IMG/VR virus record: IMGVR_UViG_3300030107_002065 | Coordinates: 1 to 37,393 of that record | From: a virus | Reading direction: 5' to 3' (one strand) | DNA length: 37,393 nt | Shown: positions 6,392 to 32,248 of the stretch, in pieces | Position numbering within the stretch: position 1 is the stretch's first letter | Layout: every line of letters starts with the position of its first letter | The notes under the pieces: generated by a model | What the model saw: only the letters and a program-made list of their open reading frames with translations | Database searches by the model: none | Told to the model about the DNA's origin: nothing | Position numbers and translations under genes: made by a program

Positions 6392-6607
6392 ATGACTAGA
6401 GACATAAGGGAACCGTCTGTGGTTCGTCTCTCTGTAAGAGATTGGATGGGAATATTCGCTTGTGTTGTAGCAATAGCCTTTCCTGTCGTAGCAGCGTATA
6501 GAGAACATGATCGCATGATTACTGAAATGATTGTGCGTCAGCAATTAATAGAGTCGCAAATAAATCGAATAGAAGATTGTTTAGACAAGTTGGAGAACAA
6601 CTTATGA
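6392..6607 (+). CDS. Small single-span membrane protein with coiled-coil tail
   Basis: A 71-residue protein. ATG 6392 follows a G-rich ribosome site (GGGGG, 6382-6386). One hydrophobic segment at about residues 19-37 (MGIFACVVAIAFPVVAAY) is flanked by charged residues. After it comes an amphipathic helix with a heptad look (MIVRQQLIESQINRIEDCLD). This architecture fits a holin-like or spanin-like protein, or a small virion-associated membrane protein. I cannot assign a family. It is the first gene after the capsid terminator and overlaps the next gene by 4 bases (ATGA). Confidence 0.6.
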   Translation: MTRDIREPSVVRLSVRDWMGIFACVVAIAFPVVAAYREHDRMITEMIVRQQLIESQINRIEDCLDKLENNL

Positions 6608-7335
6608 GAATAGTTAATTTTACAAACTCGCAAAGTACGAGTGATGGTGCTAACCCAGTTTTATCTTTAGATACTGTAGATGCAGCAAGCGATGTACTAA
6701 ATCCTCCTATTGATGGGGAAATAAGAACTGGTCTTGTTACCGTTCAAAACATCTCTGCAAGCACAACTAATAGTGTAGAAGTACAAGGTTCATTCGGGAC
6801 TACCTTTTCTTTAGCACATATTAAATTTGCAGATTCTGATGTAAATAATTACGATGAAGAAGTTGTAACTATTGTAGATGCTAGTGGCACAAACACATTT
6901 ACTTTTGACAAAGACATATCAGCTGTAGCACGTAGTTCAGCTAATACGTATGTAGTACCTGCTATTACTGATGCAGCAACCGCAGCAGCTTTTATGAAAG
7001 AAGCTATAGATCTTGCTAGAGACACGCACTTAGAAACTGGTGCTCAATGTTTTACTAGTACAAGAACTGATGGGTCTGCACAAGCTGGCCTTGAAATAGT
7101 TGGTATGGATTCTGCTGCTGGCACAACGTTTGATGTAAGCATTACTACTACAGATGCTGATATGGTTTTAGAAGAACATTACAGCGGTGAACAAAAGTTT
7201 CAAACAATTCACACTTTTACTAATATTGCAGCAGGTGCTGTTGTATCCGCAGTAGTAACTTTGTTTCCTGAAATGCGTATAAATAGTGGTACTAATGATG
7301 ACGATGGTTATGTTGTCGCAACGTTAATGGTGTAA
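6604..7335 (+). CDS. Beta-rich virion protein, putative head or tail decoration
   Basis: A 243-residue protein. I choose ATG 6604, which overlaps the previous stop (ATGA) and follows TTGGAGAA; an in-frame ATG at 6577 would overlap more of the gene before. The sequence is Thr/Ser/Asp/Ala-rich with short strands. The segment VTIVDASGTNTFTFD, then a helix-like AATAAAFMKEAIDLARDT, then GLEIVGMDSAAGTTFDVSIT has the same order of elements as a domain inside the nozzle protein insertion (residues ~641-750 of the gene at 10716). No enzyme motif is visible. The position between capsid and tail genes suggests a surface-exposed structural protein. Confidence 0.6.
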   Translation: MRIVNFTNSQSTSDGANPVLSLDTVDAASDVLNPPIDGEIRTGLVTVQNISASTTNSVEVQGSFGTTFSLAHIKFADSDVNNYDEEVVTIVDASGTNTFTFDKDISAVARSSANTYVVPAITDAATAAAFMKEAIDLARDTHLETGAQCFTSTRTDGSAQAGLEIVGMDSAAGTTFDVSITTTDADMVLEEHYSGEQKFQTIHTFTNIAAGAVVSAVVTLFPEMRINSGTNDDDGYVVATLMV

Positions 7336-7345
7336 GGAGTAGTTT

Positions 7346-8230
7346 ATGCCTCTTTGGAAACCAAACGATTTAAGCGATTTAAACTTATGGCTTACGTCTG
7401 TAGACTTTAATGGATCAGTAGGGGAAGCAGTTCCTTGGCACGACCGAAGCGGTGGCGAAAGTTTTACTGCTAATCCTTCTGATGTTTCAGACGCAGCCAC
7501 TCCTAACATAGATCCTGGTGCACTTAATGATCATAGCGGCGTAGTGTTTACAGAAGGCCGTGACGAATGGTTAGTATCTACTAGCACGACAGCAATGGAC
7601 GTAGGAGTAGGAGATTTTTATTGTGCTACGTTAGTTTCGTCACCTAGTTCTTCTAGTGGTATTCAAGCTATATTAGCTCATGATAAAACTGGAAGTTCGT
7701 TTGAATTGCGACATACAGGCAATGGTGGTAAATTTGTATGGGCTGTTGGCGGGACGGTATTAAATAACGATTCTAATGTAACTAATGATACTGTTCATTT
7801 TTTGTCTTGTGAAAAACATGGCACAGATCCAAGTGATAGCAACAACGGCACTCTTGATCATTATCGCAACGGTGGATCTACTATAGAATCAGATACTAAT
7901 TTTAATACAAATATAAGTGATGATGAATTTCGTTTAGGCAGAAGAGATGTTGCTCCAACTAGCGAAGCTAGTTTTAACGGAAGCTTGTATGAAGTAATTG
8001 TGTACCACAAAGAAATAAGTGCTACAAATCAAGACGCAGTAGAAGGATTTACTATGCACAAGTTTGCCCAAGAAGGCACGTTACCTGCTGCACATTCTTA
8101 TAGATATGGTCCACCTACAGCGTGTCATTGTGTTTCAGAAAACAATTTGTCTACAAACTTTTTGTCTTCTAACATAACACATGCTTATGAATTGAAAGAA
8201 AACCTTAACATAAGATCAGAGAGAAAATAA
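7346..8230 (+). CDS. LamG/concanavalin-A-like lectin domain protein, putative adhesin
   Basis: A 294-residue protein with the hallmarks of a concanavalin-A-like jelly roll. LSDLNLWLTSVDFNGSVGEA is followed by VPWHDRSGG, the typical opening with Trp-x-Asp-x-Ser-Gly. The closing part is SFNGSLYEVIVYHKEIS and then EGFTMHKFAQEGTLPAAHSY with YGPPT, matching the EGYLAHKWGLxxxLPxxHPY ending of many bacterial and phage LamG domains. Such domains bind carbohydrate. A C-terminal extension (ACHCVSENNLS onward) is not part of the usual fold. The likely role is host-surface attachment or virion decoration. The start has AAGGAG upstream, and it is coupled to the next gene (TAATG). Confidence 0.78.
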   Translation: MPLWKPNDLSDLNLWLTSVDFNGSVGEAVPWHDRSGGESFTANPSDVSDAATPNIDPGALNDHSGVVFTEGRDEWLVSTSTTAMDVGVGDFYCATLVSSPSSSSGIQAILAHDKTGSSFELRHTGNGGKFVWAVGGTVLNNDSNVTNDTVHFLSCEKHGTDPSDSNNGTLDHYRNGGSTIESDTNFNTNISDDEFRLGRRDVAPTSEASFNGSLYEVIVYHKEISATNQDAVEGFTMHKFAQEGTLPAAHSYRYGPPTACHCVSENNLSTNFLSSNITHAYELKENLNIRSERK

Positions 8231-8667
8231 TGTTTAGTTTTTTAACACCAGATGTAGTAACTATGCTTGGCAGTTCTGTAGTTGGATTTATATTTAAACA
8301 ACAAGCTGAAAAAAGAAAGAACGAACAAGAGCGAATGAAGATGGCTTTGCAAGCACAGAAAGCTTCAGACGATACTGCTAATAGTGCAGCAAAAAGAGTA
8401 AGCATAGATGCAGGTAGAATTACTAGACGAATTATTGTCTTGTCAGTTTTATTTGCCTGTATGTACGCACCTTTTTTAGCACCTGTATTTGATGTTCCTA
8501 TTGTAGTAGAAGTTAAAGAAAAGGCGGGAGACGTATTGTTTGGCCTTTTCGGGGGATCAGAAAAAACAGTATTTAAAGAGATTAACGGTTATCTCTTTGC
8601 AGAAGAAAATAGGCAAGCCCTGCTTGCAATAATAGGATTCTACTTTGGCACAGCTTCTGCCAAGTAA
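8230..8667 (+). CDS. Holin-like protein with three hydrophobic segments
   Basis: A 145-residue protein. There is a short hydrophobic N-terminal segment (about residues 10-22, VTMLGSSVVGFIF), then a charged helix (QQAEKRKNEQERMKMALQAQ). A clear membrane segment lies around residues 69-90 (IIVLSVLFACMYAPFLAP) and a C-terminal segment ends in ALLAIIGFYFGTASAK. The ending IIGFYFG plus a short polar tail is like three-span holins of gene-transfer-agent type, so inner-membrane permeabilisation at lysis is plausible. It sits among virion genes, so a virion membrane role is an alternative. ATG 8230 overlaps the preceding stop. Confidence 0.55.
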   Translation: MFSFLTPDVVTMLGSSVVGFIFKQQAEKRKNEQERMKMALQAQKASDDTANSAAKRVSIDAGRITRRIIVLSVLFACMYAPFLAPVFDVPIVVEVKEKAGDVLFGLFGGSEKTVFKEINGYLFAEENRQALLAIIGFYFGTASAK

Positions 8668-8678
8668 AGGAGATTACA

Positions 8679-9359
8679 TTGAGCAAGGTACTAGTTAATA
8701 CTTTAGAAAAATATTCAGGAAGTTATTTAAATTTTAACTCCAATGTCTTAGGTGCTACGAATGCAACTATAGATTGGAACGGAACTATTGATTTATCAAA
8801 AACAGTAACGTTGACAATGGCCAATGACACAACCAAAGCCTTAGATGTTGTCCAGGGTACTACTGAGTTCTGTGATGATGTAAAGTTTTTAACAGCTACT
8901 GGTGGTGCAACGAATGCTACTATTACAAATGAAGGTGCTATCTCCGCAGTATCGCTAACTACTACAGGTAATGTTGCTGCATCTGGCACAGTATCTGCTG
9001 GCGGAGTTACATTAGCTGGACCACGTGTTGTTACTGCTATGTCAGGAAACCTTGACTTAACAACTGCTGGCGTTATTTCTGGCGTAACAGTTGACACAAC
9101 ATTAGGAGCAAACACAGGGACAACTAATGGTATATCTGCTGTAGCGGTAGATGGATCTAACAGTAGACAATTAAACTTTTCTTTAGGTAGTTTAATAAGT
9201 GATACAAACTACATACCTATATTTAGCGGATTTCCTTGTACGGTTTCTGATAAAACAAGCAGCACGTTTAACGTAGAAATTTTACATCCTAGTGCAACTA
9301 ATACAGTATCTGGTGCTATGAGCAACGTTTACTTTTCACTTATTATTATTGATTTCTAA
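8679..9359 (+). CDS. Fibre-like repetitive structural protein (TTG start)
   Basis: A 226-residue protein. The start is TTG 8679, 5 bases after AAAGGAG (8667-8673), a clear case of a rare start codon fixed by its ribosome site. The sequence is low-complexity Thr/Ala/Gly/Val with alternating short strands (ATGGATNATITNEGAISAVS, LTTTGNVAASGTVSAGGVTL), as in trimeric beta-helical fibre shafts. It ends in a more hydrophobic strand pair (NVYFSLIIIDF). It probably forms a fibre or spike. It is much shorter than T7 gp17 (553 residues), and no gp17-like gene follows the ejection proteins, so this and the lectin may be the receptor-binding parts. Confidence 0.65.
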   Translation: MSKVLVNTLEKYSGSYLNFNSNVLGATNATIDWNGTIDLSKTVTLTMANDTTKALDVVQGTTEFCDDVKFLTATGGATNATITNEGAISAVSLTTTGNVAASGTVSAGGVTLAGPRVVTAMSGNLDLTTAGVISGVTVDTTLGANTGTTNGISAVAVDGSNSRQLNFSLGSLISDTNYIPIFSGFPCTVSDKTSSTFNVEILHPSATNTVSGAMSNVYFSLIIIDF

Positions 9360-9373
9360 TTTAGGAGATTTGT

Positions 9374-10009
9374 ATGGCCTTAACATTAATACAAGGAATC
9401 AATGAGGTTCTAAGAAAATGTGGCAGAAGAATCGTATCTAAAGTAGACCCTGCTGGAGAAGGCGGAACATCTACTGCTGCATACGCTGAAGCTGCGTTAG
9501 AAGAAGCAACCAGGGCAGTTGCCTCTGAAGGATGGTCTTGGAACTATAAAACAAATGTAAGTTTATCTGCGTCAGATATAGGAGACGGAACGTTTAAATT
9601 TCAAACTTCTTCTTTAGGTGAAACAGAAGTCTATCACATTGACTCTTCTGATAATTCAGAAAATCCAGAACAATGGGTAGATCATGGCGGGATTCTTTAT
9701 AATGTTACTGACAATACTGATGTATCTAGTAGTGGTGCTTCAATTAAAGTTAAGTATTATTTTAATCCTACATTTGCAAAGTTGCCTACCCAAGCACAAC
9801 AATATGCTATTGCAAAAGCTGCGTTAAATTTAAACAGATCGTACTACCCTGATTCAGGTAGAGAACAAGTAATTGCAGCTGAGATGCAACAGTTTCGTGC
9901 AACAATGCAACAAGAAGAAATTCGTGCGTCTGATGTTAACGTATTAGACACAACAAATATGCAACAAATAAGAGGCCGTAACCGTATGGCCAATAGGAGT
10001 ATTTACTAA
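9374..10009 (+). CDS. Tail tubular protein A (T7 gp11-like), first copy
   Basis: A 211-residue protein (T7 gp11 is 196). The opening MALTLIQGINEVLRKCGRRI and the helix EEATRAVASEGWSWNYKTN are the standard signature of the gp11 adaptor that joins portal and nozzle (T7-like ExLAVNxxLxxIGxxP, RxVQxxGWxFN). PTFAKLPTQAQQYAIAKAAL and YYPDSGREQVIAAEMQQF match the C-terminal helices. ATG 9374 follows TTAGGAGA. It is followed without a gap by a second gp11-like gene. Confidence 0.88.
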   Translation: MALTLIQGINEVLRKCGRRIVSKVDPAGEGGTSTAAYAEAALEEATRAVASEGWSWNYKTNVSLSASDIGDGTFKFQTSSLGETEVYHIDSSDNSENPEQWVDHGGILYNVTDNTDVSSSGASIKVKYYFNPTFAKLPTQAQQYAIAKAALNLNRSYYPDSGREQVIAAEMQQFRATMQQEEIRASDVNVLDTTNMQQIRGRNRMANRSIY

Positions 10010-10704
10010 TGGCAGTAGCAGGAATGAATATTGTAGAAGCAATAAATGAATTAGTAGAAACCATAGGCGAGTTTCCTATGAGTGGCACTACTGTTCCCTC
10101 AGCACTAAGTCCTGCTGACACAACTTCTATTTACTATCGAGCAGAACAGTTTATTGACAGAGAAAACACAAGAGTGCAATCGCAAGGTTGGCCAGAAAAT
10201 ACAATTCTTAATAGAACATTTACTGCTAAATCTGGAAGTGCAAACGATGCTAAAACTATTCCGTTGTTAGATGGAACAGCTAATACAGATCCTCCATTAT
10301 TAAGAGTACGACCTGCGGGTAAAGACAAAGGACGAAATTTAGTATCTGTAGTTACAACATTCTCTGCTTTTTCTTCTTCGGCTTTTCCGTTTTTATTTGA
10401 TTCAGACAACGAGATGTTTCAGTTTTTTAACGTATCAACTAGCGGAACAGTAAGCGAAGGTACAGTTGAATTAGATGTAGTTGTTAAACGAGACTTTGCA
10501 AACATATCTCCTTTATTGCAAGATGTAATAATTGCTGGTGCAAAGATGAAATTCCAAAGAAGATTGCAAGGTAACCCAGAGGTTGATCAACAACTATTGC
10601 AAGAATACATGATGGCTGAATATGCATTAGACAGAAACAGTCCTATCTTGAAACAAACATTTAATGTTCAACCATTAGTAGGTAACACAGGCGAGCAAAA
10701 ATAA
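10009..10704 (+). CDS. Tail tubular protein A (T7 gp11-like), second copy
   Basis: A 231-residue protein with the same plan as its upstream neighbour: MNIVEAINELVETIGEFPMS, then AEQFIDRENTRVQSQGWPEN, and late helices LLQDVIIAGAKMKFQRRLQG. INELVETIGEFPMSG and RVQSQGWPEN are in fact closer to the T7 gp11 N-terminus (VNxxLxxIGExPV, VxxRGWxFN) than the first copy. The two copies are strongly diverged. They may form two stacked adaptor rings, or one may have another place in the tail. ATG 10009 is coupled to the preceding stop (TAATG). Confidence 0.82.
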   Translation: MAVAGMNIVEAINELVETIGEFPMSGTTVPSALSPADTTSIYYRAEQFIDRENTRVQSQGWPENTILNRTFTAKSGSANDAKTIPLLDGTANTDPPLLRVRPAGKDKGRNLVSVVTTFSAFSSSAFPFLFDSDNEMFQFFNVSTSGTVSEGTVELDVVVKRDFANISPLLQDVIIAGAKMKFQRRLQGNPEVDQQLLQEYMMAEYALDRNSPILKQTFNVQPLVGNTGEQK

Positions 10705-10715
10705 TAGGATAAATC

Positions 10716-13700
10716 ATGCATAAACCATTTGTAGAAAAAATACCTAACTTGCTTCAAGGCATATCTAAACAAGCTCCTAGTGTTAGGTTTCCTGGTCAAG
10801 TAGCAGATGCTGAAAACTGCGACTTTGATTTAAAAGATGGTGCACGAAAACGTGCTGGTACACAAACACTTGGTGTAATAGAAGGAGCATTAAGCTATGG
10901 AGAATACAAACTTCATAGAATTGAGCGTGATGACGAAGAAGAATATTTAATTGTATACGGCACAGAAGCATTCTTAAAAATTTACGATTACAACAAAGGC
11001 GTGCAAGCAGCTTTGTTTATACCGCCTGAAGCAGAAACATATATAGGAACCCCAGACGCAAATGGGTTTGCTCCTAATAAAGATTCGTATAAATTTATTA
11101 CCGTAGCAGACACTACGTTTGTTGTTAATAAAAACGTAATACCAAGAACTACAGAAAATGGTGCACAACTTGATCCTGCCACCATGCCACATTTATTGCA
11201 AAGAAAAAGTTTCGATGAAAATGGAAATGCTTTATTTGAAATAAAACAAGGTACATGGAAAAGTCGATCATACAACAGACAAATTATTAATACTGCTAAC
11301 GCTGGTCCTACGATTGTAGACGGCGAAGAAAATTTACGACCTGGTTTTAAATTAAAATATGCAAACCAAACATCTGTTTTATTACCGCAAAATGCAACAG
11401 CACAAGAAGTAGAAAATGCTTTACAAGGTAATGGGTTTGATGCTAACGACTTTCTTGTTGAGCAAAAAATAACTGTTACTGCTGGCGGAGAATCACGTAC
11501 TGAATACACAGGTGAATACGAGGACATTGATTTAGAAATAGCCGATGATCCTTATAGAGGCAAAGGCACTATAGGTGGTCGTGCGGTTGCAGGATTAGGA
11601 ACATTTAAGTTTGGTAAAGTTATAGTTACTGGTGGCCCATTGGGCGAAAAGCCAATGTCTATAGCTATATCATCTGACATTGATGTAGATGAAATGATCG
11701 AAGTAGTAGATGATGCGACTGGCATGGGCATAAGTTTAGCCCGTGGAGATAATGAAACTGATCCTCCACCTGCATTTGCATTTGACGAAACACAAGATGG
11801 TTTAGAAGGAATGACTATTCGTGACATAAGTTATGTTCGTAATAGGCTAGTTATTGCAGCAGATGAGTTTATTTGTTTCTCTCAAATAGACGATGTGTTT
11901 AACTTTTATTTAGAAAACCCACCAACACTTGTAGATTCAGATGCATTTGATGTACAACTTGCGTCTACAGAAGTAACTATTATAGATCACATAGTAGCTT
12001 TTAGAGGAGCTATGGTAGTCTTTACTAAGTCTGGCCAACAGTTTGAAATGGGTGGAATAGAAACTCTTTCGCCAGGAACAGCTACGTTAACACAAACTAC
12101 TAAATACCAAACAGCAGATGTACGTCCTGAAAAAGTAGGTGACCGTGTATACTTTGCGTCTAGTGGTAATAGCGAATCTAAACTTTTAGAATATTACTAT
12201 TCAGATTCTGATGCTGGCAATGTAGCGTTGGATATATCAAAACATGTTGAAGGATTGTTACCTACAAAGATTACAGGGTTAACGTCAGAGCCAAATGAAG
12301 AAACTGTATTTGTTTTATCTGAACAAGAATTAAGTGCTACTAGTGATGGTCCAGAAGTAGTAGGAACTATATGCGAATCAGGAGATATGGATTACGACCA
12401 TGATAGTGGTGGATCTAATGACTCCTGCAATTGGAACGATTGTACAACTTGGAATGCAAGTTCAGCTACAACAAACAGAATACCCCAACCATATGACACC
12501 GCTGTTATAACCGAAGGTGCTATTATTTATAAGTCTACAGATGAATACTCTGAGCCTTATTGCAATGCGTCTGACCCTGCTAGATCTTCTAATAAAAATA
12601 CTTCTAAGTTAGCTTGTTGCAAAGATCTTCCTAGAACATATGCAACAGCAACTATAACTTTTACAGGCAATGTTACAAACGATGAAACCATAGTAATTAT
12701 TTCTACTGATGGTACTTCTAAGACTTATACTGCTAAAGCTTCTACTAACGCTGCTAGTTTGCAATTTAAAAGTAGTGACAAATTTGAGGCAGCAGCTGCA
12801 CTTAAAACTTGTATTGAACACGCAAACGGTCACGGTAAAAGGATGCATGTATCAAGAAAAGGTGCAGTATTAACTTTAACACAATTAAAAGAAGGAACTG
12901 ATGGCAATAAAACAATTACAAGTGGACTAACAAATGTAACTAAAACTAACTTTACAGGTGGTTCTTCAACTACAGCTGCACCGTGTCCTACCGCTAGTAC
13001 AGCGTTGTCTGCAAGTCCGAGCAGTTGCAACTGTTGGCCTGATGATTCTGATCAATGTACAAATAGAAGTTCTGCACAACCATTCTTTATTAGTCCTTTT
13101 AGGGCAGTATTAAAAGCTTTGCGTAGAAAACAAGTACGATTATCTTCTTTATTTCCTAGATCATTATTTAGAAGTGCTGCACAAAGTGAAGAAAATTGCC
13201 AAGATGGATTTGGCGGATGTTGTATTAATTGTCAACACAGCGATGGGGTAAGTGGAAACTATTCTTATTGCATAGATATTTGTCAAGAAGATTGCAATGC
13301 TACAAATCCTGCGTTAACAAAAGCATTGCGTGATCCTGTTTCTAGTTATGCAAATTTAGATGGGTGGACTTGTGCACCTCAATGTAAATATGGCGATGGA
13401 AAAAGTTGCAATGACTCTGCTGCTTATGCTGCTGCTGGAGGTCTTTGTTCAGGATCTGGTGTAAACTATTGTGGTTGCTTTGCTGCTATACACGATACTG
13501 ACGATGTTAATTGTGACACATTTAGTTTAGTTGGTGCTTGTTTGTTGCCAGGTGGTCAATGCATAGACACATCTAATAATTCACAAGGTTTCTTAATAAC
13601 TGCTGAACAATGTCAAATATTTGGTGGTTGTTTCTTAGGGCACGGCACAACATGCGAAAGCAATATTCCTGCTGACGCAAATTGTGGAGAACCCTTATGT

Positions 13701-14930
13701 GATGTAGTTACTCCTGGCTATTGCGTGTACACCGACAATGATGGCAATGCTACTTGTTCTCCTGCTGATTGTGCTTCTATGTGCAGTACATTTGGAGCAG
13801 GTGACGGATTATTTTCTCCAGGAGGTGTTTGTCCTTCTACTGATCCAACAGGTGCATGTTGCAAAGGCGATGGCACTTGCGAGGATGGGCTTACAGAATC
13901 TGCTTGTTTAGAAACAAACAACGGAAGTGCTTGGACTAAAGGAGCTAGTTGTATAGATAGTAGTTGCGTAGTAGAGCCAGAGTGTACTGCTTGTGACCCA
14001 GGAAACTCTGTATTAGGCGATGGTTTAGGTGATCCGACTAATGCTGGTATTGCTGGAAAAGTCCACGTATACAAAGCCTACACCGAAGGAAGCGAACGAA
14101 AACAATCTGCCTGGGGCACTTGGACATTTGGGAAAGACCGAATACAAGATGCAACCGTTATAGATGAAGATTTAATTATTGTAAGAAAACAAACTTCATC
14201 AGAAATTTCTACTGTAGGTAGCTACTTAGTTATTGATGTTTTAGATTTATCTAATTCTTCAGACGTTGTTACTGCGGTAGCTGCTGATGGTAATACAGAG
14301 TTCTCGTCTTCTGTAGCGTTGCACTTAGATCATATGATCCCATTAGACCAGGGAACGCTGCAAGACAGCAAGACTCAATGGGCGTTAAATGACTTTGCTG
14401 GTGCTAATGTAGGGTACACAGATTATGAAGTAGATACCATTGTTGTGTCTGATGACGGCACATCTAATGCTAATAAATCCTACGCTGTAACTTCTGTTAA
14501 CAACGGCACAGCAATTAAGACAGTTGAAGACGTAAACTTATCTACTAGCAAAGTGTTTGCAGGGAGAAAAGTACGGTCAATGCTAGAACTAACACCACCG
14601 TATTATCGATTAGGTGATGGCAAACCAGTTCTTGACGGCAAGACTAAACAGAAGAAATTAATAGTTGAGCATAAAAATACAGGGTCTTATGATGTTGAAA
14701 TTAGTAGCGATCAAAGTACTAATCATCCTGTTACCAGGACCAATGCATATACTGTGACCGATGGATCAGTAGACTCATTAGGAGAAAATTCAGCATGGGT
14801 ACAGGGTGACGCTAGTAAAACAACTGTCAAATTAATATCTGACACAGCTTATCCAACAACCTGGGTTTCTATAGAACATCATGGAAACATAGACTCAACA
14901 ACAGTATCGTCCCCTAACTCAGCGAGGTAA
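10716..14930 (+). CDS. Tail tubular protein B / nozzle (T7 gp12-like) with a large cysteine-rich insertion
   Basis: A 1404-residue protein; T7 gp12 is 794. It forms the hexameric tail nozzle. Residues 1 to ~545 are gp12-like: IPNLLQGISKQAPSVRFPGQ, then DAENCDFDLKDGARKRAG, and later FDVQLASTEVTIIDHIVAFR and TKYQTADVRPEKVGDRVYFA. The gp12 sequence resumes at about residue 1115 with GKVHVYKAYTEGSERKQSAW and GTWTFG, equivalent to T7 LYVYKxLWxxxEKxQQSWSHW. Between ETVFVLSEQE and GKVHVYK lies an insertion of about 560 residues with some 45 cysteines (listed separately). The reading frame is intact throughout. ATG 10716 has a weak AATAGGAT site. Its job is DNA passage plus, by inference, surface contact through the insertion. 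Confidence 0.9.
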   Translation: MHKPFVEKIPNLLQGISKQAPSVRFPGQVADAENCDFDLKDGARKRAGTQTLGVIEGALSYGEYKLHRIERDDEEEYLIVYGTEAFLKIYDYNKGVQAALFIPPEAETYIGTPDANGFAPNKDSYKFITVADTTFVVNKNVIPRTTENGAQLDPATMPHLLQRKSFDENGNALFEIKQGTWKSRSYNRQIINTANAGPTIVDGEENLRPGFKLKYANQTSVLLPQNATAQEVENALQGNGFDANDFLVEQKITVTAGGESRTEYTGEYEDIDLEIADDPYRGKGTIGGRAVAGLGTFKFGKVIVTGGPLGEKPMSIAISSDIDVDEMIEVVDDATGMGISLARGDNETDPPPAFAFDETQDGLEGMTIRDISYVRNRLVIAADEFICFSQIDDVFNFYLENPPTLVDSDAFDVQLASTEVTIIDHIVAFRGAMVVFTKSGQQFEMGGIETLSPGTATLTQTTKYQTADVRPEKVGDRVYFASSGNSESKLLEYYYSDSDAGNVALDISKHVEGLLPTKITGLTSEPNEETVFVLSEQELSATSDGPEVVGTICESGDMDYDHDSGGSNDSCNWNDCTTWNASSATTNRIPQPYDTAVITEGAIIYKSTDEYSEPYCNASDPARSSNKNTSKLACCKDLPRTYATATITFTGNVTNDETIVIISTDGTSKTYTAKASTNAASLQFKSSDKFEAAAALKTCIEHANGHGKRMHVSRKGAVLTLTQLKEGTDGNKTITSGLTNVTKTNFTGGSSTTAAPCPTASTALSASPSSCNCWPDDSDQCTNRSSAQPFFISPFRAVLKALRRKQVRLSSLFPRSLFRSAAQSEENCQDGFGGCCINCQHSDGVSGNYSYCIDICQEDCNATNPALTKALRDPVSSYANLDGWTCAPQCKYGDGKSCNDSAAYAAAGGLCSGSGVNYCGCFAAIHDTDDVNCDTFSLVGACLLPGGQCIDTSNNSQGFLITAEQCQIFGGCFLGHGTTCESNIPADANCGEPLCDVVTPGYCVYTDNDGNATCSPADCASMCSTFGAGDGLFSPGGVCPSTDPTGACCKGDGTCEDGLTESACLETNNGSAWTKGASCIDSSCVVEPECTACDPGNSVLGDGLGDPTNAGIAGKVHVYKAYTEGSERKQSAWGTWTFGKDRIQDATVIDEDLIIVRKQTSSEISTVGSYLVIDVLDLSNSSDVVTAVAADGNTEFSSSVALHLDHMIPLDQGTLQDSKTQWALNDFAGANVGYTDYEVDTIVVSDDGTSNANKSYAVTSVNNGTAIKTVEDVNLSTSKVFAGRKVRSMLELTPPYYRLGDGKPVLDGKTKQKKLIVEHKNTGSYDVEISSDQSTNHPVTRTNAYTVTDGSVDSLGENSAWVQGDASKTTVKLISDTAYPTTWVSIEHHGNIDSTTVSSPNSAR
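12372..13994 (+). other. Cysteine-rich insertion inside the nozzle protein (domain annotation)
   Basis: Residues ~553-1093 of the nozzle protein. I count 45 cysteines by eye, 34 of them from residue ~828 onward, against only a few in the rest of the protein. Internal order: a first Cys segment (553-620); a beta domain with IVIISTDGTSKTYTA, a helix with AAAALKTCIEHANGHGK, and LTLTQLKEGTDGNKTI (641-750); SSCNCWPDDSDQC; a basic stretch (790-822); then dense repeats including GGCCINCQHSDG and, near residue 1048, TGACCKGDGTCEDGLTESAC. The last motif resembles TGACCxxDGxC repeats that I associate with secreted planctomycete proteins. Disulfide-stabilised folding outside the cell and host-surface binding are inference. 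Confidence 0.8.
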
Positions 14931-14936
14931 TAATAT

Positions 14937-15467
14937 ATGGGTGCAGAAGTAATGGTTATTAGTGCCTTATTAGGTGCAGCAACCTCGGCACAAAGTGCCA
15001 GGCAACAGAATCGAGCTATGCGAAATCAACGCCGCAATGCTCAAGCTTCTTTGGATGCACAGAAAGATAACCATAAAAAACGAAGAGATGTAGTTATAGG
15101 GCAACAACTTACCAAAGCAAAATTGGCTATGTTAAAAGAAACAGATCGAAAACGTAAAGCTATAGGATCTGCACGTGCTTCATTTGCTACAGCAGGATTA
15201 TCTTTTGAACAAGGATCTGGTAGACAGATAGGTGCACAAATAAATTTAAGGTCTAACATAAATCAAGAATTGTTAGCTACGCAACTCAACTGGGATTTGC
15301 AACAAATACAATCTGACTTTGCAGCAAACACAATGGCAAGTGCTGCACAATACAATCAATCGATGATTAACGCTCAAGCCCAAATGTCAAATCCGTTATT
15401 AGCTGGTTTGTCTGGTGGACTTTCTGGTGCTCAAACAGGTCTTTCTATTCAACAAGGATTAGGATAA
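14937..15467 (+). CDS. Internal virion protein, T7 gp14-like
   Basis: A 176-residue protein (T7 gp14 is 196). It has a small hydrophobic N-terminus (MVISALLGAATSAQSARQQN) and then long alanine/glutamine-rich helices. IGSARASFATAGLSFEQGSG is the segment shared by internal core proteins of many T7-like phages (GxARAxxAAxGxxxxGxS). A Gly/Leu-rich tail (LLAGLSGGLSGAQTG) ends it. In T7, gp14 is ejected first and forms the outer-membrane channel. It lies directly before gp15-like and gp16-like genes, with a TAATG junction to the next. Confidence 0.82.
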   Translation: MGAEVMVISALLGAATSAQSARQQNRAMRNQRRNAQASLDAQKDNHKKRRDVVIGQQLTKAKLAMLKETDRKRKAIGSARASFATAGLSFEQGSGRQIGAQINLRSNINQELLATQLNWDLQQIQSDFAANTMASAAQYNQSMINAQAQMSNPLLAGLSGGLSGAQTGLSIQQGLG

Positions 15468-17560
15468 TGGCAAGAATAAAACGTAATGCAATACCTAGAG
15501 ATCTTCTTGGTAGAAGGATGGAAGGACCATACGAAGTTGATCAAACTCTTACTCCTAGAGGTATAAGTAGTTTGCCTAATACTATGTTAACGTTTAGGGC
15601 TAACAACAATAACTTAGAATTAATACAAGGTGCTTTGGCTTCTCTTGGCAAATTAAGCCGTGCTGTTAACGCTTATGAAGAAAACAAGAACAAACCTGAT
15701 CCTGTCACTTTAGGAATGGCAGCTGATGCAGCAAACACAATAGGTACAGAATTAAAAATTAACTTTGACGAAGACATGTTAAATCGTGATCAAAAAAGCA
15801 AAGACGATCCTGATTACGAAAATATGTTAATAGAAAATTTAAACAGAGTTGGCACAGATTTCAGAACAAATGCGGAAGCTGTCAACAACTTTGCTTTACA
15901 ATATGCAATAAGTAAAGGTTACAATTACGATCTTTCTACGCCTGACGGTATAGAATTTGCTAAAACATTAAACAAATCTGTTTTATCTTCTGGGTTAAAA
16001 TGGATGGATAAAAACATTACAGAGCCTCGCATTAATTCTCAAATAGACGCTATGGCTAAGCACTTAGCAAATGCTGATTCATTGCAAGATTTAGTTACTT
16101 CTGATACTTCTTCTACTGTTGACACGTTTGAAGTACTAAAAGAACGACTAGTTAATTTGAGCACCTTTACTGACGAAGACGAACATAACTTTTTTTACAA
16201 CAAAGTAGATTTAGACAAGTACGCTGCTAAAGCAATGATACAAGCAGCAGAAGAAAAAATGGTTAGATTTCGTCAAACAGGAAACTTTAAAGAATCTAAA
16301 ATGGCTCTTGCTTATCTTAAGGCTATTCCTGGCGATAAATCAGACGAACTTATTGCTTTAAAACAGCAAGCATTAAAACAATTAGAAGGTCATGAATCAG
16401 CACAAGTAAATGTAAATACGTTTAATCTTTTAAAAACTCCTGGGGAAACTTTATTAAATTTTAAAGGTAGTGATACAGAAACAAGAATGTTACAGTTTGT
16501 TAATAAAGATAGTTCTATATTTAACGAACAATTTAAAAACACACTAAATGAATATGTAAACACAACTGCTGATTTGCCACACGTACAACATAGCAAGTTG
16601 CAAGTTTTATTATCTTCTTTGCCTATAGGATCTAGTGCTAGAAATTCCGTTACCAATGCTAAAGCAAATATACCTACTATTGCTGAGTTGCAAAAACAAA
16701 TGCAAGACCAAGAAAACTTTTTATTGGGAGAAGCAGACAAAGAAATATTTGCTTATTTGCAATCTAACACAAACCCAGCAAATCGTTCTTATTCCATAAC
16801 CGATCCTACAACAGGAAACAAGATTACATACCAAGGGGAAGAACAATTTAAACAATATTTAAGATCTAAATATGTAGGAAGTTTTACTCCATTAGTTATA
16901 GATTCATTTAATCTATTAAACAGAACTGAACGGTACGACATAACAGAAGACAAACGTACTCAACAAGCTTTAAATTTTATGGAGTTAGACGGGCTATTAT
17001 TTAATGCTGATACTAATGCAGCACGTGATCACTATCTTCGTAGAGCTAAAGAAGATTTAAAAAACAAAGAAATAACAGTAGATCAAATGCAAAAGTTACA
17101 TGATGCAAGCCAAAGATTTGCAGCAGACAAGGTGTCTGCTTTGTCTGATAGTACATGGCTAGACTTTGAGCAACAATTAAGAGTACGTGCGTTTGATTTG
17201 CTAGGACAAGACGTTAAAAAAGTTGGCGGTATGACAAATAGGTTGACAGCAAGGACTGTATTTACTGGCAAACCACCTAAAGAAGGAGCTCGTGCTAGAA
17301 TAGAACAGATCATATTAGATGTGCAACGCAAATGGGTAGACCAATACTCTACTAAAAACAGCGATATATATAAGTTTTTGAGAACAAATAAAGAAGATCA
17401 ATTAAGAGTAGCGGTACGAACTGCATTGTATGAAACTCAAATGTATAACATTGTAAACGATGCTGGTAAATCTACCAACGCTACGTTGGCTGAGTTTGCT
17501 TTTAATCAAATAGAAAAAGCTATGCCAGCTTTCCTCCCAGACGACTTTCCGAAAGAGTAA
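15467..17560 (+). CDS. Internal virion protein, T7 gp15-like
   Basis: A 697-residue, largely helical protein (T7 gp15 is 747). It occupies the gp15 place between gp14-like and gp16-like genes. In T7 this protein forms the hexameric periplasmic tunnel during ejection. The N-terminus is basic with an Arg-rich stretch (ARIKRNAIPRDLLGRRM), then NLELIQGALASLGKLSRAVN. TPDGIEFAKTLNKSVLSSGL is in the region typical of the family. There are no enzyme motifs. Assignment rests on size, helical character and order rather than a diagnostic motif. ATG 15467 overlaps the preceding stop. Confidence 0.78.
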   Translation: MARIKRNAIPRDLLGRRMEGPYEVDQTLTPRGISSLPNTMLTFRANNNNLELIQGALASLGKLSRAVNAYEENKNKPDPVTLGMAADAANTIGTELKINFDEDMLNRDQKSKDDPDYENMLIENLNRVGTDFRTNAEAVNNFALQYAISKGYNYDLSTPDGIEFAKTLNKSVLSSGLKWMDKNITEPRINSQIDAMAKHLANADSLQDLVTSDTSSTVDTFEVLKERLVNLSTFTDEDEHNFFYNKVDLDKYAAKAMIQAAEEKMVRFRQTGNFKESKMALAYLKAIPGDKSDELIALKQQALKQLEGHESAQVNVNTFNLLKTPGETLLNFKGSDTETRMLQFVNKDSSIFNEQFKNTLNEYVNTTADLPHVQHSKLQVLLSSLPIGSSARNSVTNAKANIPTIAELQKQMQDQENFLLGEADKEIFAYLQSNTNPANRSYSITDPTTGNKITYQGEEQFKQYLRSKYVGSFTPLVIDSFNLLNRTERYDITEDKRTQQALNFMELDGLLFNADTNAARDHYLRRAKEDLKNKEITVDQMQKLHDASQRFAADKVSALSDSTWLDFEQQLRVRAFDLLGQDVKKVGGMTNRLTARTVFTGKPPKEGARARIEQIILDVQRKWVDQYSTKNSDIYKFLRTNKEDQLRVAVRTALYETQMYNIVNDAGKSTNATLAEFAFNQIEKAMPAFLPDDFPKE

Positions 17561-17572
17561 AGGAATTAAATA

Positions 17573-20500
17573 ATGTCTAACGAACAACCTCTTCCTGTTG
17601 ACCCAGCACCTGTAGCTCCTGAAGAAATTACAGAGCCTACTCCTGAAGAACTTTTAGAAAGTCCAGAAGACTCTGTAGAAGTTCCAGAAGAACAGTTTGT
17701 AGAAACACCTCCTGCTTTAGAAGAAGCTGGAGAAGAAACAATTGTTAAAGAAAAAACCATTTTAGAAGAAGCAGAAGGAATAGAAGAGCCAGAAGATACC
17801 CAAGAAGAAGATACCGATCCTTTTACTTTAGAAAACATACAAGAACAAGTAACTGAAAAATTTGATCCTGCTAAAGAAGACTTTGAAGAACGCACGTTTG
17901 ATATAGACAAAGAAGGTGTTTACCCTAAATCTAAAGAAGAAATGCCTTGGCATCTTAAATGGAATATTCATGTGGGATTGTTAGAAGCATTTGCTGATCA
18001 AGGTTTAATACGAAGTCCTTTTGAACAGTTTGCTGAGTTAAGAGATCGTATACCTGAAGAAGCTTATCAATATTTAGACCCACAAGATCGTGTTATTTTA
18101 GAAGGAGCCTTTACTCTTAACGATGCTGCACGTGGTGGTGGCAAAGCAGGACTAGAAAATTTTAACACAGGAATAGATATTTTTAATTATCTAACTAATA
18201 AAAATCTTTCTACTTTTGATACTGACGCTATGTTTGGTGTTCCTGAAGATACTCTTGGTGCAGTAGCAGAAGGGTTTGGACAATTTTTAACTTTGTTTCT
18301 ACCGTGGATGGGTGCTGGTCGAGCAGTACGAGGAGCAGTTGGTTTAAAGAATACTTTGTTTTCTAGCATAGCTATCGATGCATTTGCAAGTGTTATGGCT
18401 TCTTCTACTGGCTTTGATCCTGAAAAAGGTGGCGTGTTTACTATGGTAGAACAAGCCATGAACAACGGCACTTTGCCAAGAAGTCAATTTCTAACCGCAG
18501 CTGCTCAAGTGTTTGACAGCACTCAGTACGAAGGCAATGATCGTATTAAAGGAAGAATTGCATTAGGATTTGAAGACGCATTGCTTACTCCATTCTTTGA
18601 ATTGTTACGTGTACCTGGTGCTGTCATTGGAAAAGGCAAAAAGTTTGTTGCTTCAAAAGAAGTACGTAAACAAACTAAAATAGCTATAGAACAAATTCGT
18701 GCACGTAATGCTCGTGCTGAAGAAATACTTCAAGAAAATCCAAACATGTCTGAATCTTCTTTGTTGATTCAATTGCAAATGGAAGGTTTAGGATTTAACC
18801 AAATACAAGACAACTACATCTTGCCAGCATTTACTAAACTAGCTTCTGAAGCATTTAACATACCAACTGAGCAAGCCGAAATGATTGTGGCTAAATTTGT
18901 AGGAGGCGGATTAGATCCTGAGCGTGTGTTCTTTGGTAATGGGAACATTTCTCCTGGTGCACAACAAGTAATGTTAAATCAATCTACAGCTGGTAAACGG
19001 TTTAGAGATGAAGATATATTTAGAGACAACGCTAAAGACATTGATTTGTCTAACGCTAACAGAAAGTTTGGCCCTGGCAAATTAAATCCATCAATAAGAG
19101 AAAGCATTAACAAACTTAAATTAAATAAACAAGATACTGCGGACGTACAACAAAGTGTGTCTAGTGTGCTTCAACGATTTCCAAAAGGAAAAGATGGACC
19201 CTGGGAAACATTAGAAGTTCAATCAGTTAAACTAATTAAAGATAGCAAAGGCAACGTTAAGAAAAATCCTAAAACTGGTTTGCCAGAAGTAGACGTAACG
19301 TTTAAACAAATACCTTATACCTTTAACAGAGATAAATCTGGAAAGCCATTTAAAATTGGTTCCCCTGAAGCTAAACGTAGAAAGAAACAATTAGCTAAAA
19401 AAATGGTAGCTGAGTTAAAAGAATTAAAAGCTAAGGCTAACGCAGGTGATCAAAGAGCTAAAGACATACTTAATGCCCGTACTTGGTACAGCGGTATGGA
19501 AGAACGCTTAGGCAGAGAATGGGGTGGCTATGTAGATATGTTTGGCGAAATGCTAGGAGCAACTAGTCCACAAACACCTGTAGCTCAGAACTACATTAAT
19601 GCACAACAAATTATAGAAAATTTTACTAAGGGTAGATACGATGATGTTTTATCTCGATATGTAGCACACTTAGAAAACAATGGCACACATCAAACATGGA
19701 TTGATGGTGGCGGTGAAATAATCGGAAAAATAAATCCTAAAACTGGTAAACCAGATATTGGACCTAAAGAATTATTTGCACCTCAATTTGATAACAATGG
19801 CAAGCCAATACGTAAAACTGTTGGCGATCCAGGATTGTATGGAACAAACACAAGAAACATAATGGAAGTTCTTGCTACTAAATGGTGGGAAGGGAAATTT
19901 GGTAAACCTGGTGGTGCACCTAAAGCTTTAACATTTGCTGGTAATTTAATTGGATACACAAAGAAAGCTACGATAGATGTATGGGCTGCTAGACAATTGC
20001 AAAGATTGTCAGGTAAGAAAATGGTTCCGCCTCCTGCCGAAGGTGCTGTTGGTGGACAATTCTTAAAAAGTGGCAAGCCTGGCGGAGCCTATGGATTTGC
20101 ATCTGATGTATTAGATGACGCTGTAGAAATGCTACGCAAAGAAGGCGGTGAGTTTGAAAATGTAGATCCTAGAGATTTGCAAGCTATTATGTGGTTCCAA
20201 GAAAAAGCATTGTGGGCTGATCAAGGTCTAGGTTCTTTAGGTGGCTCTATGGAATCATTGGCTTCTATGTTTAATGCTCAACGTTATGTTATTGGTTCAT
20301 CTGTTGCACGAGAAGTTCGTCCGTTAGGTTCACGAACTATTTTAAGTACTGGACCAGACGGCAAGCCCATGAACTTTACAATAACTGGTCAAGACCGAGA
20401 GTTATTTGAAAAGGCTAAAAACTTTGTAGAACTAGAAGCACGTAATGATGACACTATAGGTGCGGTATCCTTTGGTGAAAATCTTGGAATCTTTGAACTA

Positions 20501-23500
20501 AAAGGTGAAGATTCTTTTCATTTAGAAGTAACAACTAAGAATGTTGTAGGTCGTGTTGAAGATATTGACCCTGCTACAGGAAAGAAAAGAATAGATCCTG
20601 CTACTGGTAAACCTGTAACTAAATCAGTATTTCAAATAGAAGCCAGACCAGACGCTGGCTCTGTTGTGCGAATGGCTTCATACGTAGGAAAGATTGGCGA
20701 TCAAGATGCGGTTATGGTTTCCCGTGTATTACCTGCTGGAAACTTAGATGAAACATTAGAACAAGTACCTAACGCTCGTCCTGGTTTAGAAATGTATTTT
20801 GACAAGCCTGTTAGCGTTCAAGAAGCTACTGTAGTTTTAAATAGATTAAAAGAAGAAGGACTAGGTGCACAAACTATAAACGAAGTTAGCAGAGGTACTA
20901 CTCGTGCTGGCTCTAACAAGATTATAGGTATTCGTGCTGTTTATGTACCTGAATTTGATCCTATGGCTTCTAGCTTTGTAGGAAATAAAGAAGGTGCACT
21001 AGCCCACGTAAAAGGACAATTTGAAAGATTTGATGACCTAGCAGATGTATTTGACGGCTATACTGTATCTGAACAAGGTGTTCAATTTAACCGTGTAGAC
21101 GTAAGTGCGTTTGACACAAAAATATTAGGAAGGGAAGACTATGACAGAGTCCTCGAAGAAATCAATGCTGGAACACCTGTACGATCGGTCGATAGAGAAG
21201 CGTGGCCCCAACGCTCCTGGCACGATCAGATTGAAGAGACAACTGGACGCAGCGAAGGCGGAGCAAAACAACCAGGTGATGGAGAAATATCTAATCCAAG
21301 GTCTGGGTCGAGCCCAAGAGAGTTAAACCAAGCAGCTAGTAATGCCGACACTCCTAGAGGTCGTGCTGTATTAGATGAACTTTCAGGTGTTGCTTTTATC
21401 AATGGATTAGAAGCTGCCGATGTTTCTACAGCTGTACACGAATTTAGTCATGCATTAAATGCACAACTTATAGCAGACGATAGTGTGTTGGCTAAAGAGT
21501 TAGCAGACTTTTATGGCGTTAAAGATGGCAAGTGGACTGACGAAGCTTACGAACGATTTGCAGAAGATTCAGAAAAATTTATGTCTGAAGCTTTTGAAGG
21601 TGCTCCTGGTCCTTTAGGAGAAATAGCTGCACGTATACGTGACATTTATGTTTCTTCTAGAGGTACACCTTTAGAAAAAAGGATGAAACCAGAAGTAAAA
21701 CAGTTCTTTGAAAACTTATTACTAAGAAATGATTTGCCAATTCAATACCTGCCAGGTAAATACATGGCTCCTATTAGCTGGACTCCTTTAGTAAAACGAG
21801 TTAAAGAGTTAGAGGAACTAGGAGAAGATTGGCGAGAAACTATTACACCTGACATGATTCTTGCTACGGCACGAGTTAAGAAAACTGGAAAGATAAACAG
21901 AGCTTTAGATCCAGACGAATCGCAAACTTTATTTAACGCAGACGATGCTGATGACGTTCATAAAATGTTAGCAGCATTTGAACACTTTGCAGTAACGTTA
22001 AGAAAAGAAAAATTAATGAGCAATTCGTTTGAAGATGCAACTAATAAAGATGCAGTTGATTTATACAACATGTTACTTGGTAGAGAAGATGACCAGTTGC
22101 ACGAAACCTTTGCAGAACTTATGACAACTGATGCACGAGTAGATGGTAGTGGTCCTGCTAGAACGGTAGCTGTAAACATGGCGTTGTCTATGCATTTAGA
22201 AAAAGTACATAGACTTGCTCTTAAAGCTGACAAGACAGGATCTATAGTTGATCATGCCAAACTACAACGTGCGTTCATGGACTTTCAATATGTAAGTCAT
22301 ATGGTAGCAATGAAGAAACGTAGTGATGGTCAATCATTGCGTGCATGGAATCAACCAGTCAACATGCCTACTGATGAAGATTTATCAGATCCTGCAAAAG
22401 CTTTAGACTTTATGAATAAATTAAAGTTAGATCCTTTAAGCAATCAACAAATCATTAACTTTATTAAACAAGGGGGTGATCCTAAATCTCACGAAGGATT
22501 GAAAGCATTAAGAGATGCAAGTAAAATTGCTGTGTTTGGAAACAAGTCACAAGGTCAAGGCAGAGCAGCAACGCAAGAATTCTTTGTAAACAATTTGTTA
22601 TCTAACCCAGAAACTGCTTTAGGTATATCCTTTTTAAGTCCGTTGTTAACTTTAACATTAGATGGTGCTTCTAAATTTGTAGGTGCTTTACTTGGTGCAG
22701 ACGCAAGAACTATGAACGAGGTTCTTGTAAACCTTAAACAAAACATACAGAATTTACACATTTCTATGTATTACGCTATGAGAACCGCAAAGAATGAAGT
22801 TGCTACTCTTATGCCAGGTAGAGAATTAAACGATGCTAACTTTGATCAAAGAGCAATACGAATGGACGCTGAAGGTCCATTAGATCCTCGTCATGTTGTT
22901 AATGGAATAGGACAAGTAGTTCGTACTCCAAGTAGAGCTATTATGACTATTGACGAATTGTTTAGACAAACCTCTGCACGCTCTGCTGCGTATACTAAAT
23001 CTTACAGAGACTATGTTGACAATTACATAGCAGTAGGACAGCAAGAAGGTCGCATACCCATGCAACTAAGTAGAATGGGAGAAATGCGTTATCAAAACGA
23101 AATTCATAGAACAGCACATCAACATGCATTAAAAGAAACCAAAGAAGTTATTAAAGATGGTAGGTTGCAAGACCAACATGCAATTATGCAAAAAGTAATG
23201 AACTCTCCTGAAGCTCAAGCATTACAGGACAAGCCTCATGAAAGAGCTTTGTACATAATGCAAAAGACTCAAGAAATGTACACGCCTAGACAACACGAAC
23301 TTGTTGAACATGCAAAAGAAGCAGCGGTCAAGCCTGTCTTCCAGGGAGACATTGGCCCTAACGCAGAAAGATTTCAGAAGTTTTTAGACAACACTTCGTG
23401 GGGTATTGGACGATTGTTTGTGCCGTTCTTTAGGACACCTGTTAATGTAATGGGTAGGTTTTTACAATATGTTCCTACTGCGTTAGCAGAGTCTGCTTTT

Positions 23501-30476: not shown

Positions 30477-30744
30477 ATCAATTGGACAATTAACATTCGC
30501 ATTAAAGACAGATCTTATGTCACGTATGAAAATAACTTCTTTACCTAAAGCAATCTTTTTCTGTCGTATGTTAAAAGAACTAGGTCTTGAATACGATATG
30601 TCTATACCAATTCACGAACAAGTCTTTGACAAAGCGATGGAAGATGAATCTGTTTTTTTCGATCCGCCGTCAGAAGCATTTATAAATTTTTTAGAAGAGC
30701 GTAGACAAGAGTTACAGGAGTACCCATCAGCATGGAAACATTAA
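30469..30744 (+). CDS. Early protein, unknown, helical
   Basis: A 91-residue protein. I choose ATG 30469 because AAAGGAGG (30456-30463) sits just upstream; the frame is open further up but lacks a site. It has helical segments VKSIGQLTFALKTDLMSRM and LPKAIFFCRMLKELGLEYDM, and an acidic C-terminal half ending EERRQELQEYPSAWKH. No family is recognised. It overlaps the preceding gene by 8 bases and the lysozyme-like gene by 13. Confidence 0.6.
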   Translation: MVKSIGQLTFALKTDLMSRMKITSLPKAIFFCRMLKELGLEYDMSIPIHEQVFDKAMEDESVFFDPPSEAFINFLEERRQELQEYPSAWKH

Positions 30745-31235
30745 TACTACTAATCGTTTGTTCTTTTAATAACTTTAAAATGACTGACCTGGAGAAAGCA
30801 ATCCACCAGGTAGAAACAGGTTCACGTGTAGGAAAGATAATAGGAGACCAAGGCCGAGCACTTGGCCCACTGCAAATACACGTTGGTGCTTGGACCGATT
30901 GTAAAAAGAAAAAAGAATCATATTCAATGTGTTCACAATTAGAATACAGCGTGACTATCTTTAGAAGATATTGCAACAGGTATCTAACTAAAAAACGATT
31001 AGGTCGTGCCGTTACTGAGAAGGATAAAATATTCTTATGGAATGGTGGACCAAACGCACATAAAGCTAAAGGTAAAAAATTAAAAAACTTAACTAGGTAT
31101 TACAAGAAAGTACAAGAAGCTTTGCGTGTAATTAAAAAGAGCTCGGTCCAACCTCTGCGTTGTAAAGACCGAGCCCTAAGTGACCACCTACCAAGTGAAT
31201 CACTAAAAAGTATACCAGAAAAGAAAGGAGAGTAG
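30732..31235 (+). CDS. i-type (destabilase-like) lysozyme, putative endolysin
   Basis: A 167-residue protein that probably cleaves peptidoglycan between MurNAc and GlcNAc. The motif series matches invertebrate-type lysozymes: a catalytic-type Glu in AIHQVETGS, an Asp in IIGDQGRALGPLQIHVGAW followed by TDC, then SVTIFRRYCNRY, WNGGPNAHK and TRYYKKVQEAL (compare i-type ARIHNGGPxG, YWxKV). A short hydrophobic start (METLILLIVCSF) may be a weak signal anchor; an in-frame ATG at 30780 would remove it but has no ribosome site. The last ~35 residues are basic and not part of the domain. Its place in the early operon beside the integrase is odd for a lysis gene. Confidence 0.72.
   Translation: METLILLIVCSFNNFKMTDLEKAIHQVETGSRVGKIIGDQGRALGPLQIHVGAWTDCKKKKESYSMCSQLEYSVTIFRRYCNRYLTKKRLGRAVTEKDKIFLWNGGPNAHKAKGKKLKNLTRYYKKVQEALRVIKKSSVQPLRCKDRALSDHLPSESLKSIPEKKGE
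31141..31204. repeat. Stem-loop and AGTGA repeats in the lysozyme gene tail
   Basis: GCTCGGTC (31141-31148) and GACCGAGC (31167-31174) form a perfect 8-bp inverted repeat, extended inside by CAAC/GTTG (31149-31152 with 31159-31162) with a TAAA bulge. After it, AAGTGA occurs at 31178-31183 and 31193-31198, and TCACT (31200-31204) makes the last copy palindromic. No T-run follows. It lies just upstream of the RHH and integrase genes and may be an operator, an integrase arm site or an RNA processing element. Confidence 0.5.
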
Positions 31236-31447: not shown

Positions 31448-32248
31448 ATGAGTACCACCTACCACCTCAAAGATTGGACTGATCGTTACTTAAAATTAAG
31501 ACAAGCAGAATTAGATCCTGCAACGATTAAGATTCATAGAAGAACATGCAATCTTTTATTCCAATACTTTGGTAACGTTGAATTAAAAAGATTATCCAGG
31601 GCCGATGCTGCTGACTGGAACTTATACTTGATGACTGAATTAGAAATGAGCGAAGCAACTCGTTGCAAACATGCTCGTGTTGCCAAGGTAATCTTTGAAC
31701 GAGCCTTAGATGAGGAGCGTGTTGCAGTAAATATGTTTCGCAAACTTAAGAGTACGCCCTCGCATGTAGTACATGAACGTACTCTTGTTAGTGAACTAGA
31801 TGTAATGAAAGCTTCAGTCCAAGAGCCAAGATTAAAACCAATTCTTATGTTGTGTTACTGGGCAGGACTAAGACGCAACGAAGCAATGCGATTGAAACCA
31901 GAACATGTTGACTTTGATAACAATAAAATATACGTACTACCTAAAGCAGGCAAAGTAACTACTAAACAAAAACGAAGAGTAGTAAGATTAGAAGTACAAC
32001 TTAAAGAATACTTGCAAGAGTTGACAACTTATAACGAACTAAAAGAAAGTTTATTATGCAAGTTAATGAAGGGTAAAGGATTTAAACTTCAACAACTTAG
32101 ACAAACAAGAGATACGATTTGGCATGACAACTATCCGCCACACGTGGCAAGTAGTTGGTTAGGACATAGCGAGCGTGTTGCTCGTGAGCATTACTTGTCT
32201 GTGTCAGATCATCATTACGACCATATTGCTTTAAAGAAAGGAGCTTAA
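31448..32248 (+). CDS. Tyrosine-family integrase, compact, with a divergent HxxR box
   Basis: A 266-residue recombinase for site-specific integration. The N-terminal SAM-like core-binding domain includes TIKIHRRTCNLLFQYFGNVE. The catalytic domain has Arg in YWAGLRRNEAMRL (Arg142 or 143), a Lys in PKAGKVTT, then QQLRQTRDT (Gln215, Arg218), WLGHSERVAREHYL (His240, nucleophile Tyr249). The usual first His of HxxR is Gln. That LRxTRDT form plus PPHVASSWLGHS resembles integrases I associate with planctomycetes (LRATRETEL, HVVxxWIGNS). It indicates a temperate phage. It is encoded in the early operon; ATG 31448 follows AAGGAG. Confidence 0.9.
   Translation: MSTTYHLKDWTDRYLKLRQAELDPATIKIHRRTCNLLFQYFGNVELKRLSRADAADWNLYLMTELEMSEATRCKHARVAKVIFERALDEERVAVNMFRKLKSTPSHVVHERTLVSELDVMKASVQEPRLKPILMLCYWAGLRRNEAMRLKPEHVDFDNNKIYVLPKAGKVTTKQKRRVVRLEVQLKEYLQELTTYNELKESLLCKLMKGKGFKLQQLRQTRDTIWHDNYPPHVASSWLGHSERVAREHYLSVSDHHYDHIALKKGA

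Follow-up and report, generated by a model that had tools for sequence, protein, structure and literature searches.

A T7 gp12-type tail nozzle of an uncultivated virus carries a layered, cysteine-rich insertion at a predicted propeller hairpin

Results

A gp12-type nozzle gene behind two adaptor genes

The DNA analysed here (the window) is the whole 37,393-nucleotide IMG/VR virus record IMGVR_UViG_3300030107_002065; its features are collected in Table 1. The nozzle gene is a single uninterrupted open frame, whose product matched family PF25675 (E 2.6e-83; 281 bits versus a cut-off of 27), phrog_457 (5.6e-93) and, in sequence-level comparison, the structures of T7 and other nozzles. It lies in the gp12-type position, directly downstream of two gp11-like genes and upstream of gp14-like and internal virion genes. 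On the strength of these matches, we conclude that the frame codes for a T7 gp12-type tail nozzle. When the whole nozzle served as a single query protein, the viral collection yielded no relatives; alignment-based searches were required. In a search confined to Planctomycetota, nozzle relatives were present in 9 of 392 genomes.

Table 1. Features of the nozzle locus in the window
Feature	Position	Strand	Basis
gp11-like adaptor, copy 1	9374..10009	+	PF17212 1.1e-15
gp11-like adaptor, copy 2	10009..10704	+	PF17212 8.5e-8; conserved in clade
T7 gp12-type tail nozzle gene	10716..14930	+	1,404 aa; PF25675, phrog_457, nozzle structures matched by sequence
In-frame insertion, residues 539-1113, 45 Cys	12330..14054	+	Nozzle alignments; hairpin equivalent to T7 gp12 517-521
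Clade-ancestral stub, NWNDCTTW..IPQPYDTAVITEGA	12429..12521	+	Clade-motif HMM 18.7 bits
Nested beta-domain (IEHANGH..TNVT.TNFTG type), residues 638-750	12627..12965	+	Matches in L002-L004; missing from L290
Cationic amphipathic stretch AQPFFISPFRAVLKALRRKQVRLSSLFPRSLFR..., residues 787-826	13074..13193	+	Helical moment and net charge
Cys-rich segment A, 14 Cys	13194..13529	+	Relative identified in L290 only
GACC-type mini-domain 1, residues 939-991	13530..13688	+	HMM 12.4 bits; pLDDT
Cys-rich segment separating the two GACC mini-domains, 6 Cys	13689..13847	+	
GACC-type mini-domain 2, TGACCKGDGTCEDGLTESAC..., residues 1045-1093	13848..13994	+	HMM 22.3 bits; pLDDT
Linker ...GDGLGDPTNAGIA returning to nozzle	13995..14054	+	Conserved in L290

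The initial annotation of the window, made from the sequence alone, had described a gp12-like protein broken by an in-frame insertion, and would take flanks that fold as one nozzle as support. Both flanks do align to nozzles, the C-terminal one with 32-35% identity to nozzles of the clade described below. The fold was assessed on a model of a close relative, L093: the full-length model (pLDDT 81, pTM 0.78) is a T7-type nozzle with a seven-bladed propeller and platform, and its best match is T7 gp12 (VIA-align Z 40, 597 residues aligned, 2.3 A).

The tandem gp11-like adaptors, versus one in T7, are both present in relatives L093-L099. The record starts inside an RNA polymerase gene (13-876; phrog_414, 5e-80), which means a cut or a permutation of the genome at that point.

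Extent and composition of the insertion

In alignments with eight cultured-phage nozzles the window nozzle is interrupted once. Similarity ends at residue 538 (LSEQE) and restarts at residue 1114 (GKVHVYK), the same break that had been reported initially, and the insert is 575 amino acids long. The interval first proposed, 12372-13994, was rightly located and slightly too narrow; position 13994 is where the second GACC repeat stops. The earlier estimate of about 45 cysteines agrees with the count: 45 of the 47 cysteines of the protein fall in the insert, versus 2 in 829 flanking residues (Fisher p 5e-16), and the insert is likewise enriched relative to the phage's own proteome (0.79% Cys; binomial p 9e-30). 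T7 gp12, which was correctly given as 794 residues and cysteine-poor, has 5 cysteines in the record used. Three internal virion-type proteins encoded next to the nozzle (14937-24865; 3,303 aa in total) have no cysteines, so this residue is not a general property of the virion proteins.

Queried with the insert, Pfam, PHROGs, NCBIfam, PDB and the cultured phages yielded nothing usable at the sequence or family level. Neither the insert nor a relative of its beta-domain was matched among 50,697 cultured-phage records, and the module is thus carried by no phage of known host in that collection. When modelled alone, the insert had a mean pLDDT of 44 and was confident mainly in two GACC mini-domains; fold searches with this model found no match at E <= 0.001, a result to which the low pLDDT lends little weight.

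An assembly chimera, which the initial annotation had named as one circumstance that would undo its reading, was considered here. The exact junction 30-mers are absent from all other viral contigs, as a chimera would predict. Against this, GC content and synonymous codon choice through all 575 codons do not depart from the range seen elsewhere in the genome, and an independent, 49%-identical contig, IMGVR_UViG_3300030101_004894 (L290), carries at the same site a Cys-rich insert homologous to that of the window, both of whose junctions are homologous too. Since the architecture recurs on a separate contig, a chimera can be regarded as excluded.

Parts of the module

The insert had been taken for one disulfide-rich domain of about 540 residues; it is indeed separable and Cys-rich, but it is a stack of modules (Table 1). 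The separate beta domain that had been noticed within it was confirmed at residues 638-750, and is 48-51% identical over about 105 residues to large structural proteins of L002-L004. L290 has no beta-domain at the matching point, which suggests that in the window copy the domain is nested. Two of the viruses that share it, L003 and L004, also have a chaperonin gene, of thermosome type as judged by eye. Chaperonins are reportedly encoded by Aoguangviridae (magroviruses; PMC10768690), and these two viruses are therefore probably archaeal and magrovirus-like. They carry the IEHANGH domain in several copies within large structural proteins, whereas the window has just one copy, set inside its Cys-rich module.

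The two GACC mini-domains account for the CCxGDGTC patterns of the initial annotation, although the exact motif occurs once and the copy at residues 939-991 is divergent. The HMM score of neither mini-domain was equalled in 1,000 shuffles, so the GACC cysteine repeat, an uncurated one, is a pattern beyond composition. The 10-residue pLDDT blocks were 70-89 in four cases and 60 in one for mini-domain 1, and 72-92 for mini-domain 2.

The cationic stretch has the highest helical moment and the highest 30-residue net charge (+8) in the whole window nozzle, and the equivalent stretch of L290 (+7 per 30 residues, at the matching position) has the strongest moment and highest charge of its own protein. 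An origin of the stretch by frameshift was rejected: the other two frames have stops, and L290 has a similar stretch. The coincidence of charge and moment maxima at one module position in both Cys-rich nozzles could mean that the module is membrane-active, the stretch being held in a cysteine cage and freed or reoriented on contact, when it would perturb the outer membrane or bind an anionic surface polymer and so aid the ejection channel. However, the coincidence involves two sequences, between which identity of the stretch is low except for RRK; the model has no confident helix at 787-826; and in T7-like phages it is the ejection proteins that already make the channel. We consider membrane activity unlikely.

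Position of the insertion in the nozzle

The insertion point aligns to T7 gp12 residues 517-521, a hairpin. C504 of T7 gp12 belongs to blade 7 of the propeller and C554 to blade 1 (PMC6702177); from this numbering and the alignment, we infer that the site is the blade-7 hairpin. Since the tip domain of the nozzle branches off at propeller blade 3, the insert would not be at the tail tip, where the initial annotation had put it; gate 2 is formed by a blade-6 loop. The size of insert that is tolerated suggests that the blade-7 loop faces outward, and, given this tolerance and size, the insert is likely exposed at the surface. In most other nozzles compared, the fixed flanking residues enclose 16-21 residues; one nozzle has a span of 38, clade members have 76-98, L290 has 294 and the window has 593.

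Layered growth at one hairpin

In a maximum-likelihood tree built on nozzle columns, the 18 long-span nozzles, including that of the window, form one clade (support 100/99), within which the window and L290 are paired (100/100). Judged by this tree, the insert clade is monophyletic. Three layers can be distinguished. The first, common to the 18-member clade, is a short stub with the motif NW..TW..PQPxDTAxI; the second, in the window and L290, is a Cys-rich module that follows the stub; the third, in the window only, is the extra beta-domain inside that module. The stub is seen in clade members carrying an insert, and against its score for the window stub (Table 1) the best of 1,000 shuffles reached 5.1 bits. 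In the L093 model the stub is a low-confidence loop between propeller strands 520-525 and 596-605. Assignment of the stub to the G8 domain (PF10162) was rejected: 2 of 13 stubs scored 15-16 bits versus a cut-off of 22.9, a weak likeness (E 0.012-0.02) that covers 30 of the 124 positions, at the domain start. In alignments A5-A7, MAFFT set the stub rows of relatives against the Cys-rich part, and these alignments were for that reason kept out of modelling.

L290 and the window have the same order of elements: stub, DEY..C, CC..LP, CNC(W/F).DD..QC, cationic stretch, (G)GCC/GACC segment and GDG(L/Y)GDPTN linker. An acidic Gly-Asp repeat (GDGGDGEDDGTDDGGDDDGDGEDDGG), possibly calcium-binding and missing from the window, closes the module of L290 (2764-5628).

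The insert is separable, as had been proposed, because relatives lack it or have just a stub at the same place. We conclude from these comparisons that it is an accessory module, built in layers at one fixed nozzle site. A single propeller hairpin can be traced from a tight loop through the clade stub and the Cys-rich module that two lineages carry, up to a nested domain shared with unrelated viruses, and thus offers a stepwise record of a virion part gaining modules. The three layers within one hairpin, and a beta-domain common to unrelated viruses, might also be expected of a tolerated insertion hot-spot that gathers mobile domains without selected function. We regard such hitch-hiking as highly improbable: 575 codons stay open with genome-like codon usage, and both the element order and 19 co-aligned cysteines are kept between modules whose nozzles are about 50% identical.

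GACC repeats in other genomes and the host

Of the 51 stretches with the pattern GACCxGDGTC in the genome collection, 49 are titled Planctomycetota, mostly Phycisphaerae. A looser GACC pattern occurs in many viral contigs, some of which could be cellular, and GACC repeats recur in large proteins of uncultivated viruses, some with weak tail-fibre matches; among the viral loci examined that bear GACC repeats, none encodes a nozzle. The mini-domains of the window share the pattern GACCxxDGxC..C..G.G..C..C with the repeats of Phycisphaerae proteins and of uncultivated viruses, at 12-24 bits to an HMM built from those repeats. In these proteins the repeats belong to large Cys-rich or fibre-like products, whereas in the window they lie in a nozzle. 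No account of GACC repeats from phages or planctomycetes was found in the literature.

The window also encodes a tyrosine recombinase (31448-32248) within a T7-like phage. For this integrase, 30 of 119 Planctomycetota genomes gave matches, the best at 3e-22; in a control, the phylum of a Myxococcales genome, 7 of 113 genomes did (best 3e-7). Together, the GACC signature and the recombinase matches point indirectly to Planctomycetota as the probable host.

The planctomycete proteins with GACC-like repeats are probably secreted, which bears on the state of the cysteines. Phage virions are assembled in the reducing cytoplasm, and CC, CxC and CxxC spacings are present in the sequence, so the cysteines might stay reduced and bind metal instead of forming disulfides. 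The likeness of the GACC mini-domains to repeats of proteins that are probably secreted argues otherwise, as does the result of family searches, in which no zinc-binding family was matched by the insert. Metal binding appears very unlikely.

Discussion

Nozzles are usually viewed as conserved gates, host contact being left to fibres. We put at about an even chance the possibility that the insert is an exposed host-contact module on the outside of the nozzle. An exposed, disulfide-stabilised module for host recognition or surface penetration had been proposed initially, and the comparisons bear this out in part. Six copies, one per nozzle subunit, would project from the tail exterior; their cysteines would be kept reduced during virion assembly in the cytoplasm, and after lysis disulfides would form, yielding small, stable, protease-resistant knots. 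The module would then touch the envelope of a Planctomycetota host prior to nozzle opening, and supplement or partly replace the work of tail fibres. Should binding or breaching of the host be its role, the module would hint at how phages meet the unusual Planctomycetota envelope.

Profile searches recognised no gp17-like fibre among the window proteins searched, though a missing profile match counts for little, and three ORFs at 6577-9356 are fibre candidates. A virion structural protein at 7346-8230, between the capsid and gp11 genes (phrog_10356, 2.6e-8), is a candidate adhesin, and a weak destabilase match at 30732-31235 (i-type lysozyme, PF05497, E 0.0028, below cut-off) marks a candidate lysin.

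Instead of contacting the host, the module may be a structural collar that braces the nozzle or anchors fibres, and serves virion stability or fibre docking. The propeller site is near strands leading to the fibre dock and platform, which would suit such a part, as would the missing gp17-like match; phage SU10 docks short fibres with a propeller loop (PMC9509320). Yet module size and content differ strongly among close relatives (stub, 294, 593), as is more typical of an exposed variable part, and we think a collar unlikely. A more elaborate form of the host-contact proposal joins a disulfide cage to the cationic amphipathic segment beside the ejection channel, so that the nozzle, and not a fibre, would recognise and perturb the Planctomycetota envelope. 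The nozzle would then be a docking site for stacked modules, with mini-domains like planctomycete-protein repeats. This combination we regard as distinctly unlikely.

With T7 gp12 (PDB 6r21, 7boy, 9jyz) the window nozzle shares the propeller and platform core, the gp11-gp12 order and the sequence profile, but where T7 has a tight hairpin the window has 575 inserted residues. Large insertions in propeller nozzles are already known. The muzzle gp44 of crAss001 (PDB 7qok, 7qol), a propeller-type nozzle, is likewise enlarged by big nested insertions, for which contact with the host surface has been proposed (PMC10172136). At the tip of the crAss001 muzzle, blade 3 itself and the junction of blades 2 and 3 hold the insertions (Ig and crass domains), whereas the insertion of the window is Cys-rich and aligns to blade 7, not to blade 3 or Ig domain 2; a crAss-type muzzle was rejected, the propeller alone being in common. 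The nozzle gp17 of SU10 (PDB 7z47) is also a propeller with inserted domains, and the loop at the propeller edge that docks its fibres is at blade 1, the nozzle domains being between blades 2 and 3; the sections of the SU10 report consulted describe no Cys-rich module (PMC9509320). Relative to these systems, three features of the window nozzle appear to be new: its blade-7 site, its layered growth as followed across relatives, and its Cys-rich content.
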